From the NCBI GenBank assembly GCA_019096065.1, contig JAGUCH010000001.1, positions 4,588,001-4,652,000 of the forward strand: DNA of 64,000 nt. The letters run 5' to 3'. A program made the translations under genes and the position numbers. The notes below the pieces were generated by a model. That model was given only the letters and a program-made list of their open reading frames with translations. It had not been told where the DNA came from and did not search any database. The stretch is from Paracyclopina nana (taxonomy: Eukaryota > Arthropoda > Copepoda > Cyclopoida > Cyclopettidae). Below, in pieces: positions 32,586 to 61,866 of the stretch (position 1 is the stretch's first letter; each line of letters begins with the position of its first letter).

Positions 32586-33067
32586 TAGTGATGGAACGAG
32601 TTTCAGCTTGGCTTGAAAGCTTGAAGCTGAAACCCAGCTTGAGCTACATAAGCAAAAAGCTTGGGATCGCTCGAACCAAATTTTGAAAAGCTTGAAAAAG
32701 CTTGAAACCCAAAAATGCAAAGCTTGAAAAAGCTTGACACCCAAAAAAAACCTTAATCCATTTTTAATCAAAACAAAAAGGGCTGATTTTAAAATTAACT
32801 AATACTTGAGGGAGAACTTAAAGCTAAGTTAAAGCTATATCTGTCATTATTTGCGCTTTTTAGGTAATTTTGTCAAATCTGGTGACTAATCGCCATTTTT
32901 TATGTTAAAATTCTAAAAAAGTGAAAAGCTTGAAAAAAGCTTGAAATGTGAAATTTTGAGCTTGAAAAAGCTTGATAATAATTTTCAAAAGCTTGGGATC
33001 GCTCGAACACTTTTCAAAAAGCTTGAAGCTTGATCAAGCTGAAAATTTCCGGCTCGTTCCATCACTA
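32586..33067 (+). mobile_element. hAT-type MITE copy 1 (AAGCTTG-word family)
   Basis: This is a 482 bp element with terminal inverted repeats TAGTGATGGAACGAG and CTCGTTCCATCACTA and a perfect 8 bp target duplication gttacgat (32578-32585 and 33068-33075). The 8 bp duplication and the TAGTG start (YARNG rule) indicate the hAT superfamily. There is no transposase, so it is non-autonomous. Both flanks of the interior consist of closely spaced AAGCTTG/CAAGCTT words around a unique AT-rich core. GGGATCGCTCGAA occurs near each end in the same orientation, so the arms are direct, not palindromic, arrays. Confidence 0.9.
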
Positions 33068-33078
33068 GTTACGATAAT

Positions 33079-33567
33079 TAGTGATGGAACGAGTTTCAGC
33101 TTGGCTTGAAAGCTTGAAGCTTAAACCCAGCTTGAGCTACATAAGCAAAAAGCTTGGGATCGCTCGAACCAAATTTTGAAAAGCTTGAAAAAGCTTGAAC
33201 CCAAAAATGCAAAGCTTGAAAAAGCTTGACACCAAAAAATTTCAAAACTTTATCCATTTTTAATCAAAACAAAAAAGGGCTGATGTTAAAATTAACAAAT
33301 ACTTGAGGGAGTGAAGTGCTTAAATCTAAGTTAAAGCTATTTCTGTCATTTTTTGTGCTTTTGGGGTAATTTTGTCAAATCTGGTGACTAATCGCCATTT
33401 TTTATGTTTAAACACTAAAAAATTGAAAAGCTTGAAAAAAGCTTGAAATGTGTTTTTGAGCTTGAAAAAGCTTGATAATAATTTTCAAAAGCTTGGGATC
33501 GCTCGAACACTTTTCAAAAAGCTTGAAGCTTGATCAAGCTGAAAATTTCCGGCTCGTTCCATCACTA
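33079..33567 (+). mobile_element. hAT-type MITE copy 2
   Basis: 489 bp, same termini and orientation as copy 1, with its own perfect 8 bp target duplication acgataat (33071-33078 and 33568-33575). Its left duplication overlaps the right duplication of copy 1 by five bases, so both elements inserted within the same 11 bp of ancestral sequence. Confidence 0.9.
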
Positions 33568-39094: not shown

Positions 39095-39376
39095 CAACAC
39101 AATAGTACTTTATTTCTTAGAAGTTGCTCACAAAGATATGCCAAATTGATGACTGAAAAATACAAAACTTTTTATCAAATGCCCAACATGCAAATAAAGT
39201 AAGATGGATCAATTACAAATCGCGCTCGAAATAAGCGCTAACGAAATCAGAAGTTAAAGTCAAGTCAACTATTTTGGCTAGTCGAAGCGTTAAGAAATGT
39301 CTGGTGACACTTAAGCACATACACAATGTTAACCCGACAAGGCCAGCCTTAGCCAAGACAGGACTTGTGGTCAGTG
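39095..39376. other. 3' flank of the secreted protein gene
   Basis: It contains the poly(A) signal at 39193 and then unremarkable AT-rich sequence up to the next mobile element. Confidence 0.5.
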
Positions 39377-39883
39377 TAGTGATGGAACGAGTTGGAACTC
39401 GGCTCGGTAACTCGAACGGCTAACTCGACTCGGACTACATAAGCATTTAACTCGAACTCGCTCGAAAGTTGAAAAATATTTCTGGAGAACTCGGAAAACT
39501 CGGAAGCAATTTTTACGAACTCGAAAGTTCGAAAAAATTAGAAAACGAACATTTTGCCAAACTGCTCAATATTCAAATATGGCTAGGCTAGTATGCTAGT
39601 ACTTTGGCAAACCAACTTGTGAATGGTTCTTGACTGCTATCTTCTAGTAAGACAGTTTTCTAATGCATTAATTTATAGCTAAAATGTAATAAAAATTCAA
39701 TTAACAATGCAGGTTATGCAGCAATGCTTGAAACTCGAATTAACTCGGATTTTGATAATTGCCAACTCGACCAAGCTCGTTCTCAGCAACTCGAACTCGC
39801 TCGGAAAATTTCAGCAACTCGGAACTCGCGCGAACTCCGAACCCAATTTTATCGATTCGTTCCATCTCTAGTACTAGGTAGTA
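39377..39883 (+). mobile_element. hAT-type MITE, AACTCG-word relative
   Basis: The left end TAGTGATGGAACGAG is identical to the AAGCTTG family, and the right end reads TCGTTCCATCTCTA near 39859-39872. An 8 bp duplication ggtcagtg at 39369-39376 and 39884-39891 brackets 507 bp, if 11 to 13 extra bases after the right TIR (gtactaggtagta) belong to the element. The layout matches the other family, including CTACATAAGCA near the left end and TCGCTCG near both ends. However, where those copies have AGCTTG, this one has AACTCG, repeated through both arms. It has no coding capacity. Confidence 0.8.
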
Positions 39884-39891
39884 GGTCAGTG

Positions 39892-49500: not shown

Positions 49501-51196
49501 CCTGTAATGTGATTGTATCCTAAAAGAGTGCCATAAATTCTATCAGAAAAAATGCCTCATTTTTTCCGCAGCATTTTAGCAGACTCTTTTTCGCCTTGAA
49601 CTCTTCAATTTGACTTGGAAAATGAGCCTGCCTGTTTCGGACGTCTTGTGAATTTCAGTTGCACTTTGTCAAAATGACTTTGGCAGATTCACCGACCCCT
49701 GACGCACTTTGAACAACACCCCAAACTGCTTTTCAGGCAGCTGTTATCGATTCAATTAGGAAATCACTGAAAGAAAAATGGAACATTGTTTCGCAAAGCC
49801 CATTGTCTACGAAAGCCAACATAGCAATTTTTTGCTTCAAGCATGTACTACACGAGGTGACTCACGAAGTGGGAAAAAGCCTACCGATTGAGCGCAATAA
49901 CTATAATGCATATGTAGTAATGGCTGTTTTTGCAGTAATGATAAAGGTCTGGTTTTCCGCTGCAGCACCACCCAAAACTCCAGATTTAGGCAGCTGCTAT
50001 CAATTCAATTAGGAACTCTTTTGACAGATGAAAAATGTCAATGTCTGAAGTGAACTTTTGACACACCCAGGAGCAGCAGCAGTCAAATATAGGTTTTGGA
50101 ATGAATAATGATTGATCAATCACGGGTTTTTTTTCCCTGATCAAGATCTCAATAAATGCAACGGCAGCCCTAATTTAAATTCAACCATCATTCGGGCAAG
50201 TTTGTTGACTTTTGAATTTTGCAACTGTTTCTCGGAGTATACACATAGTACAGCAGCTGTGTGCAGTTTAGCAAGCACCCAAAATGTCTGATTTTCTTTG
50301 TCACGAGCTAATGATCCAAAAATCAATCAATCAGCTCTTAAGCAGAGACTTAGATTACTAGAGAAGCGAAATTATGTGACGTCATAGGGGGTGCGTGCCT
50401 CTTTTTTGGGACGCTCCAAAAGAGAATACAATGGCTTTTTGGCGCTGGCTGCCTGAGTTTGGGCTGGGGCTGACTTTTCATTCCAAATATTTCAGAAATG
50501 ATCCATTTTTGATCAATGTCAAGTATAGTTTGAATGTAAGTTGACCAAGTGCCTCTAACTTTTATTTTCAACAGTTTTAAGGTTCTTATTGAAAGTTTCA
50601 ATTTATTTAAGAATCATTTTTATGGTACAGCCATTTTATCGTTCCCGGCTGAGCGTTCCTGGAAATGGCCAAACACTTTCAGAAAAAGTCGATTTTTTAA
50701 CATATATGATCAAACTTGCGAATCTGGTTACTCTGATATCATTTGATGGAAAATCTCGGCTCTAAGGAAACCAAGGCAGTATGTCTAATCTCTTTCTGAT
50801 ATAGCACTGATTTTGGCGTTACTCTAAATGGGATTTTTATTGTCAAACAAATGCCGAGTGTGGCATTTTTTGAAAGTATACGTCTACATAAAAGTGATGA
50901 AAAAGATAACTTATTGACGCGTAGCAGAAAAGTGGAATGTTTACATTTTTACTTCGCTTCTCTTATAATCTAAGTCTCTGCTCTTAAGCACGGACCAGCG
51001 CAAAAATGGATCGGAAAATGAGTCGAATATTCCGAGTCACCCTGTAGGAAGCTGGAAGGATTGATGATGACTCCAAGCCTGAATACGAAGTGACGCGTGA
51101 AATTCAATTTTGCTTACCCTTATTTCCATGAGTGGGTCTAAACAAGATTACTGACCAGATGACCAGTAATCCTGATGTCGTCCAAAAGTGCATCAT
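40555..51196 (-). CDS. FGFRL1: FGFRL1-like receptor: three Ig domains, one TM helix, no kinase
   Basis: Exons in transcript order: 51196-51118, 44079-43967, 43594-43432, 42476-42218 and 41647-40555. All are GT-AG and in phase, giving 568 aa. Exon 1 encodes a signal peptide (MMHFWTTSGLLVIWSVILF, then RPTHGNKG). Ig1 (about 35-118) has LNCEIAGFPTPMYEW and DTGEFLCKGVNGFGSA. Ig2 (about 130-215) has ITCEALGNPNPEIIWLKNGK and DGGLYSC. Ig3 (C257 to C329) has HIKWLK, RYQILPAAEDI and ADNGTYFCFVAKNG. These follow FGFRL1, including the long CC'D insertion with the RYQILP motif of FGF-receptor Ig3. TM is about 370-397. The tail of about 170 aa has no kinase, a short polyglutamine run, His-rich patches and YEVP/YEPD motifs. 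FGFRL1 binds FGFs and heparan sulfate without phosphorylating. Intron 1 is 7 kb and holds a mobile element. C-terminal tails vary in this family, so function there is unknown. Confidence 0.9.
44080..51117 (-). other. FGFRL1 intron 1 (7.0 kb)
   Basis: The intron is bounded by donor AAGG/gtaagc (exon 1, minus strand) and acceptor ttttcattttcag at 44080. It separates the signal-peptide exon from Ig1, as in many receptor genes. Apart from the TTA-flanked element at 44.7 kb I see only AT-rich sequence. No additional exon could be supported. Confidence 0.75.
44732..45219. mobile_element. TTA-flanked non-autonomous DNA transposon (Harbinger-like)
   Basis: This 488 bp element has perfect 16 bp terminal inverted repeats TGCCCTGTTCATCTAC / GTAGATGAACAGGGCA, flanked by TTA on both sides (44729-44731, 45220-45222). 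That is the target duplication typical of PIF/Harbinger elements. The interior contains two CTAGGG(C/T)TGACTAA words and two inverted TTAGTC(G/A)A(C/T)CCTA words, plus several GTCGTA/TACGAC words. It has no coding capacity and lies within FGFRL1 intron 1. Confidence 0.8.
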
Positions 51197-60328: not shown

Positions 60329-60806
60329 TAGTGATGGAACGAGCCGGAAATTTTCAGCTTGATCAAGCTTCAAGCTTTTTGAAAAGTGTTCGAGCGATCC
60401 CAAGCTTTTGAAAATTATTATCAAGCTTTTTCAAGCTCAAAATTTCACATTTCAAGCTTTTTTCAAGCTGTGTTTAAACATAAAAAATGGCGATTAGTCA
60501 CCAGATTTGACAAAATTACCCCAAAAGCACAAAAAATGACAGAAATAGCTTTAACTTAGATTTAAGCACTTCACTCCCTCAAGTATTTGTTAATTTTAAC
60601 ATTAGCCCTTTTTTGTTTTGATTAAAAATGGATAAAGTTTTGAAATTTTTTGGTGTCAAGCTTTTTCAAGCTTTGCATTTTTGGGTTCAAGCTTTTTCAA
60701 GCTTTTCAAAATTTGGTTCGAGCGATCCCAAGCTTTTTGCGTATGTAGCTCAAGCTGGGTTTAAGCTTCAAGCTTTCAAGCCAAGCTGAAACTCGTTCCA
60801 TCACTA
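60329..60806 (-). mobile_element. hAT-type MITE copy 3
   Basis: 478 bp, inverted relative to copies 1 and 2. The TIRs are as in the family, with a perfect 8 bp duplication ttacaaat (60321-60328 and 60807-60814). Its core is closest to copy 2: both share a segment with TGTTTAAACA and a GCACTTCACTCCCTCAAG string in corresponding orientation. Confidence 0.9.
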
Positions 60807-60835: not shown

Positions 60836-61324
60836 TAGTGATGGAACGAGCCGGAAATTTTCAGCTTGATCAAGCTTCAAGCTTTTTGAAAAGTGTTCGA
60901 GCGATCCCAAGCTTTTGAAAATTATTATCAAGCTTTTTCAAGCTCAAAATTTCACATTTCAAGCTTTTTTCAAGCTTTTCACTTTTTTAGTACTTTAAGA
61001 TAAAAAATTGTGATTAGTCACCAGATTTGACAAAATTGCCCAAAAAATGTAAAAAAAAAATGACAGAAATAGCTTTAACTTTGATTATGTACTGCATTCC
61101 CTTAACTATTTGTTAACTTTAAAATCAGACCTTTTTCTTTTGATTAAAAATGAATTAAGTTTTTTTTGGGTGTCAAGCTTTTTCAAGCTTTGCATTTTTG
61201 GGTTTCAAGCTTTTTCAAGCTTTTCAAAATTTGGTTCGAGCGATCCCAAGCTTTTTGCTTATGTAGCTCAAGCTGGGTTTCAGCTTCAAGCTTTCAAGCC
61301 AAGCTGAAACTCGTTCCATCACTA
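60836..61324 (-). mobile_element. hAT-type MITE copy 4
   Basis: 489 bp, same orientation as copy 3, with a perfect 8 bp duplication gccatggc (60828-60835 and 61325-61332). The target is itself a perfect palindrome. The core is the most divergent of the five (an A-run and a GTACTGCATTCCC segment), so it represents a third sub-lineage. Confidence 0.9.
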
Positions 61325-61387: not shown

Positions 61388-61866
61388 TAGTGATGGAACG
61401 AGCCGGAAATTTTCAGCTTGATCAAGCTTCAAGCTTTTTGAAAAGTGTTCGAGCGATCCCAAGCTTTTGAAAATTATTATCAAGCTTTTTCAAGCTCAAA
61501 ATTTCACATTTCAAGCTTTTTTCAAGCTTTTCACTTTTTTAGAATTTTAACATAAAAAATGGCGATTAGTCACCAGATTTGACAAAATTACCCAAAAAGC
61601 GCAAATAATGACAGATATAGCTTTAACTTAGATTTAAGTTGTCCCCCAAGTATTAGTTAATTTTAAAATCAGCCCTTTTTGTTTAGATTAAAAATGGATT
61701 AAGATTTTTTTGGGTGTCAAGCTTTTTCAAGCTTTGCGTTTTTGGGTTTCAAGCTTTTTCAAGCTTTTCAATTTGATTCGAGCGATCCCAAGCTTTTTGC
61801 TTATGTAGCTCAAGCTGGGTTTCAGCTTCAAGCTTTCAAGCCAAGCTGAAACTCGTTCCATCACTA
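61388..61866 (-). mobile_element. hAT-type MITE copy 5
   Basis: 479 bp with a perfect 8 bp duplication tcattaat (61380-61387 and 61867-61874). The core matches copy 1 best: both have the reading equivalent to GCGCAAATAATGACAGATAT, where copies 2 and 3 differ. Confidence 0.9.

Follow-up and report, generated by a model that had tools for sequence, protein, structure and literature searches.

In-register replacement of a repeated subterminal word in the left arms of three hAT MITE families of Paracyclopina nana

The window analysed here, a 64,000-nucleotide stretch of a Paracyclopina nana contig, holds six related short elements: a focal element built around repeated ACTCG words (B type) and five elements built around GCTTG words (A type). 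Their features are listed below in window coordinates, column numbers referring to the left-arm alignment described further on.

39369..39376, forward strand: target site duplication (TSD) GGTCAGTG, left copy, read from the sequence
39377..39870, forward strand: B-type hAT MITE, word ACTCG, the focal element (terminal inverted repeat pair, genome relatives, 15 AACTCG)
39377..39391, forward strand: left terminal inverted repeat (TIR) TAGTGATGGAACGAG, from the TIR pair
39396..39523, forward strand: left-arm word array, 8 AACTCG in a single orientation
39435..39445, forward strand: landmark CTACATAAGCA, common to A and B at equal distance from the tip
39460..39464, forward strand: unswapped GCTCG site, column 84 (GCTCG in 29/29 A and 15/21 B copies)
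39732..39828, forward strand: right-arm word array, 7 AACTCG, orientation as in the left arm
39856..39870, reverse strand: right TIR with 2 mismatches, from the TIR pair
39884..39891, forward strand: TSD GGTCAGTG, right copy, with 13 extra bases (39871-39883) between element and copy
32586..33067, forward strand: A-type MITE, word GCTTG, TSD GTTACGAT
33079..33567, forward strand: A-type MITE, TSD ACGATAAT
60329..60806, reverse strand: A-type MITE, TSD TTACAAAT
60836..61324, reverse strand: A-type MITE, TSD GCCATGGC
61388..61866, reverse strand: A-type MITE, TSD TCATTAAT

Within the focal element, AACTCG begins at 39396, 39409, 39422, 39449, 39455, 39488, 39497 and 39518 in the left arm and at 39732, 39742, 39764, 39788, 39794, 39816 and 39823 in the right arm. 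The original prediction had counted about 20 swapped words and placed the end of the element at 39883; the element in fact has 15 AACTCG in this orientation and ends at 39870, the bases 39871-39883 lying between it and the second TSD copy. Its second left-arm site reads GCTCG, where the B family consensus has ACTCG. Each of the five A elements holds 15 AGCTTG in its own orientation. The 15-bp start TAGTGATGGAACGAG is indeed common to the focal element and the five A copies, as had been claimed (13 sites at up to 3 mismatches, against a mean of 1.35 and a maximum of 6 in shuffles). The other likenesses were likewise found as described: in A and B alike, CTACATAAGCA and TCGCTCG are equally far from the tip, and CAGCTTGGCTTGAAAGCTTG faces GAACTCGGCTCGGTAACTCG, with a corresponding pair in the right arm.

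The earlier assignment of these elements to hAT MITEs is upheld by their ends, their repeated words and their target sites. The short TIR of hAT elements has the form YAGNGNTG, which is fitted by TAGTGATGG (A and B) and TAGAGGTGT (the third family, C, described below), and a repeated subterminal motif is present, each of the six window elements carrying 15 words that all point the same way. The copies are short, multi-copy and non-coding (350–507 bp in the A and B sets, 218–328 bp in the set termed B2); three copies of about 1 kb (L043, L051 and L052) contain inserts, with the longest stop-free stretches there reaching about 100 aa or less. Counting exact duplications only (inexact pairs such as those of L044 501-991, L059 and L069 being left out), 8-bp target duplications flank 31 A elements, 23 B elements and 1 unassigned element, and are also seen for C. 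Among their 51 distinct sequences, 36 have T as the second base and 25 have A as the seventh, the same T2/A7 bias as is reported for Hermes target duplications (PMC8721813), which identifies these as hAT elements.

Copies for comparison were collected across the assembly (92 Mb, 10 contigs), in which the exact 15-bp end occurs 252 times on the forward and 245 times on the reverse strand (reversed control, 0); genomic places of this end number 100 among the matches listed. A search with the focal element returned at least 60 matches (40 of 88 candidates scored), with 72–94% identity across the matched parts, and the element therefore belongs to a dispersed family. From 81 TIR-paired stretches, chance pairings included, 29 full-length A copies were taken (at least 10 AGCTTG, 440–520 bp). 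The B set was drawn from 131 stretches at up to 4 mismatches (at least 7 AACTCG, fewer than 3 AGCTTG, 330–520 bp), which gave 22 copies and, after removal of one chance pairing (L075_5064), 21 (9 B-long and 12 B-short). L016, decayed by CpG loss, was left out of B, as were six B-derived elements (L023, L024, L025, L030, L031 and L087) that share the identical flanking 8 bp CTGAACAT and, because of that identity, were probably copied within a larger repeat and not inserted separately. Seven B2 copies were picked by hand, leaving out L085 and L086 (near-identical to L084), L041, L079 and L090. With up to 2 mismatches allowed, a 17-base pattern for further B copies matched 68 sites (37 exact); its reversed control matched 31, and only copies with readable ends were therefore used. 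Mean pairwise identity was 0.934 in A, 0.869 in B-long, 0.908 in B-short and 0.761 in B2.

Two word families had been proposed, and at least three exist (A with GCTTG, B with ACTCG and C with GCCCG). Family C, first seen within the A element of L052, is 494 bp long with TIR TAGAGGTGTATCGG and TSD GAAATTTC. It has at least 40 copies at 92–100% identity to the query (40 of 84 candidates scored), and its ends at up to 3 mismatches number 67 left and 57 right, with no control matches; the comparisons below draw on 3 C left arms and, for the right side, on one element. In L006 an A element lies inside a C element and in L052 a C element lies inside an A element, so that A and C moved in overlapping times.

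Aligned from the tip, the left-arm consensuses of A, B and B2 run through 91 columns free of gaps, C having one extra base. The 15-bp TIR is identical in A and B, and that of C differs. All six A word starts (columns 21, 26, 34, 52, 74 and 105) are also B word starts, five of these swap sites falling within the first 91 bp and the sixth just past it. At the six sites, GCTTG stands in 171/174 A reads and ACTCG in 100/126 B reads, the remaining B reads showing scattered changes or gaps, most commonly GCTCG (6) and ACTTG (4). In C, GCCCG occupies columns 26, 34, 74 and 105 in 3/3 arms and column 52 in 2/3, and the first C word is shifted by the extra base. Outside the TIR, 47 of the 76 A and B consensus bases agree without a gap, a value equalled by none of 20,000 base shuffles (maximum 35). 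An alignable backbone thus extends past the TIR, and its absence, named in the original prediction as grounds for giving up co-evolution, is not what we found. As a stricter null we shuffled the order of the spacers, retained the words and applied ordinary gapped alignment. Under this null the left A/B score was equalled by 0/2000 shuffles and its 6 words in register by 2/2000, the left A/C score by 0/500 (with 9/9 A words in register) and the left B/C score by 2/500. An alternative in which words were masked at zero score (1 and 0 words in register) was set aside as unsound, masked columns pairing free, and the spacer-order shuffles were used instead. The left arm thus keeps its register across the families while its words are replaced in concert, as had been proposed of the words.

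The evidence for register is weaker in the right arm. There the A/B score was equalled by 4/2000 spacer-order shuffles, and the 2 words that align in the gapped alignment do so equally in 1207/2000. The A/C score was equalled by 0/500 shuffles, with 4 words aligned as in 141/500, and the B/C score was no better than the shuffles (164/500). An ungapped comparison of the terminal 63 bp finds A and B identical at 41 positions, and the 26/48 outside the TIR are equalled by 2/20,000 base shuffles. The swap of AGCTTG for AACTCG, originally proposed along both arms, accordingly stands for the left arm in register and replacement; its support is weaker in the right arm, and columns 47 and 80 hold words in B and none in A (C has GCCCG at column 80 in 2/3 arms).

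To what extent the words are constrained was considered against the spacers between them, in Fisher tests that take related copies as independent. Words were less variable than spacers in A (719/720 vs 1218/1244, P=0.00014) and in B2 (167/175 vs 247/293, P=0.00016), both P-values being too small for this reason, and were not clearly less variable in B (487/504 vs 844/885, P=0.33, on the same treatment). Between A and B, 21/35 word columns and 26/42 other columns are alike, with no excess divergence of the words; the oddity is therefore that the words change alike, not how much they change. In a tree resampled 100 times on 57 columns, word columns excluded, A came out as a clade 91 times and B 50 times; B and B2 formed a joint clade 37 times, A and B2 never, so that A stands as its own clade. 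Among the 57 A, B and B2 copies none is a mosaic with at least two words of each type at swap sites; one copy alone (L055 501-925, B type, with GCTTG at one swap site and ACTTG at another) carries both family words at such sites. Given the lack of mosaics and the A clade, the word change thus separates lineages and does not reflect ongoing conversion. A joint change of some 20 words by conversion or by rebuilding of the arms, the mechanism first entertained, is disfavoured by the left spacers in register, by the 0/57 mosaics and by column 52, where B2 has GCTCG in 6/7 copies and B has ACTCG in 18/21.

The GCTCG word deserves separate attention. Its retention at column 84 in both A and B marks the swap as word-specific and not as general decay; C has neither GCTCG nor GCCCG at this column, with ACTCG one base further. 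The B2 state at column 52 suggests that change proceeded gradually, site by site. Furthermore, GCTCG is one transition from each of GCTTG, ACTCG and GCCCG and still occupies one site in B2 besides column 84 in A and B, and a single-step path between the words through GCTCG is therefore suggested. A family built mainly on GCTCG did not emerge from two pattern searches (8 matches, of which the four inspected were B2-type; 0 in A context at up to 2 mismatches).

We also searched the assembly for a transposase or an autonomous partner. The hAT transposase domain PF05699 gave 0 candidates at E-values up to 0.001 and up to 10, with control genomes equally silent and absence therefore unproven. A 64-aa hAT C-terminal probe, which itself matches PF05699 at 2.5e-23 and Hermes at 2e-12 and found 95 proteins elsewhere, gave 0 matches in the assembly, the controls again being silent. 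A zf-BED search gave 128 matches at E-values up to 10, mostly weak and judged zinc-finger noise (controls rang in 3/14, none above the cut-off). A 671-aa open frame at C3:4363409-4364713 (G000), with six BED zinc finger family matches of which four are strong, is possibly a domesticated hAT-derived gene. Pairing C ends by position for long elements yielded a single 2-kb element, without a long frame (L099 123-2166, TSD ATTATTAG), which by eye contains tRNA-like stretches. Several listed C copies are at 100% identity, and C should for that reason have been served recently by an active transposase.

We propose, with a probability of roughly 60%, that A, B and C are siblings of one arm layout in which the word, a putative transposase docking site, was replaced in place as the word preferences of the lineages diverged. 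Sibling non-autonomous hAT families would descend from the one layout, and the word in both arms would serve as docking site for an N-terminal (BED-type) transposase domain, the terminal repeat being read separately. Transposase lineages, or the elements they served, would then have diverged in the word they favoured: GCTTG for A, GCCCG for C, and ACTCG for B and for the majority of B2 sites. Within a lineage, the former words would be altered in place, one by one, until the array was uniform, and the family would multiply once uniformity was regained. Co-evolution with transposases of differing specificity is the likeliest reading; we infer the binding and the partners, together with the changed specificity, the driving role of selection and the succession of steps, from the arrangement of the DNA. 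Such docking has precedents: the Hermes BED domain binds a repeated AAG(T/C) (PMC10368747), the Herves transposase binds a CG/AATTCAT subterminal motif (PMC3143072), and the motifs of hAT-derived proteins vary widely, those of the four hAT-encoded members corresponding to the subterminal regions of their own elements (PMC8097297). With the inner left-end repeats of Hermes mutated, about 70% of activity is left (PMC10368747), and not every word need therefore matter.

A possible, though on balance unlikely, alternative is that the families go back to distinct hAT lineages that arrived or split long ago, each served by a transposase of its own, the layout reflecting deep common ancestry and no switch having occurred inside this genome. 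That A and B agree at only 26/42 columns outside the TIR and words, that A is uniform and forms its own clade, and that C has a different TIR with many copies 92–100% identical to the query would all be expected; against this stand the identical 15-bp TIR and gap-free 91-bp layout of A and B, the one site in another word state that B2 has within the B side, and the nesting of A and C in each other (L006, L052), which places their overlapping activity here. We consider it doubtful that the words were bound instead by a partner other than the transposase, either a host factor or an element-encoded anti-silencing protein of the VANC kind, and that it was this partner which changed. Nearly all words here run in one orientation through both arms, much as VANC21 motifs are arrayed in one orientation and co-evolve with their protein (PMC5735166), but repeated subterminal motifs are what hAT transposases bind (PMC10368747, PMC3143072), and MITEs that encode nothing would presumably gain less from an anti-silencing site. 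Equally improbable in our estimate is a serial arms race, in which an autonomous hAT would escape titration by MITEs through a change of docking word and the MITEs would win back access by converting their arrays site by site via the shared neighbour GCTCG; if it were true, one genome would have kept the consecutive rounds as B, A and C.

A mutational footprint, left by CpG decay or a transition-biased process without selection, is very unlikely. All differences among the three words are transitions, and L016 carries AACTCG changed to AACTTG and to AACTCA; yet A retains CpG at column 84 (29/29) and in its TIR, the first base of the word (A vs G) is preceded by A or G in the consensus arms and thus lies outside CpG, 11/29 left-arm A/B differences (words included) are transversions, and the A words are uniform (171/174). 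CpG decay was rejected on the retained column-84 and TIR CpG and on these transversions. Least credible of all is that slippage of simple words produced the arms of the two families independently with only apparent likeness, a view for which the short words, the A-rich spacers, an apparent local tandem duplication in the A left arm (by eye) and a right-arm word register no better than shuffles in gapped alignment might be cited, and which was rejected because the ungapped left-arm identity (47/76, 0/20,000 shuffles) and the alignment scores (0/2000 left, 4/2000 right) exceed shuffles and CTACATAAGCA and the column-84 site are common to A and B.

Among described hAT elements we know of none whose left-arm layout is repeated in three families, each with a different word all along it. 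The elements resemble Hermes, Herves, Ac, Tag1 and Tol2 in their short TIR, 8-bp TSD and many short-word copies in both arms; unlike these, they repeat the left-arm layout in three families with the word replaced, and are known from the DNA side alone. A parallel is found in VANDAL21 of Arabidopsis, in which one-orientation motifs in non-coding parts are bound by the element-encoded VANC21, protein and motif evolve together, a one-base motif variant (T-type) accumulated in a single subfamily, and motifs spread by tandem repeat formation (PMC5735166). One-orientation motifs and concerted motif change are common to both systems, the recognising protein being known in VANDAL21; in contrast to its tandem repeats, the hAT MITEs described here have irregularly spaced words and left-arm spacers that stay in register. 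In Galileo of Drosophila, subfamilies share the terminal 40 bp, and one THAP domain binds its own internal sites, those of a second subfamily weakly and those of a third not at all (PMC3688188). Sibling subfamilies with a common tip are likewise found here; Galileo, however, belongs to the P-element superfamily and has long TIRs, and in-register word replacement is not described in the available text of that report (PMC3688188). For CGGBP and hAT N-terminal domains, motif diversity is documented on the protein side (PMC8097297), where ours is seen on the DNA side. Concerted change of repeated recognition motifs and poorly cross-reacting sibling subfamilies are thus already known; the new part, for which we found no described case in the literature as available to us, is that a dispersed word has been substituted in register in three hAT MITE families. 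The wider question, which concerns transposases and transcription factors alike, is how a protein with many copies of a single target site shifts its preference when all of those copies must shift. Three families whose words each lie a single step from GCTCG, together with an unswapped site and a lagging B2 site, offer a natural series for direct tests of binding and mobility.

Other repeats were met in the course of this work. L028 2307-2864 is a hAT-like MITE with TIR CAGAGTTATCAACG, 8-bp TSD AATATACT and a repeated word of its own, GTGGTCG; a further MITE-like element with TIR CAGAGACTTA and an 8-bp TSD, in which no word seems to be strongly repeated, lies at 50343-50980 of the window and at L098 239-672. 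Among eight contig ends (both ends of C1–C4), TTAGG-type arrays were found at L101, L102 and L105, CCAGG-type arrays at L100, L103 and L107, and neither at L104 and L106; at L039 18-5093, 1002 CTGGC copies are joined to 12 CCTAA. Nanopore base-calling is known to read telomeric CCCTAA as CCCTGG (PMC9414165), so that the CCAGG arrays probably represent TTAGG telomeres called wrongly.
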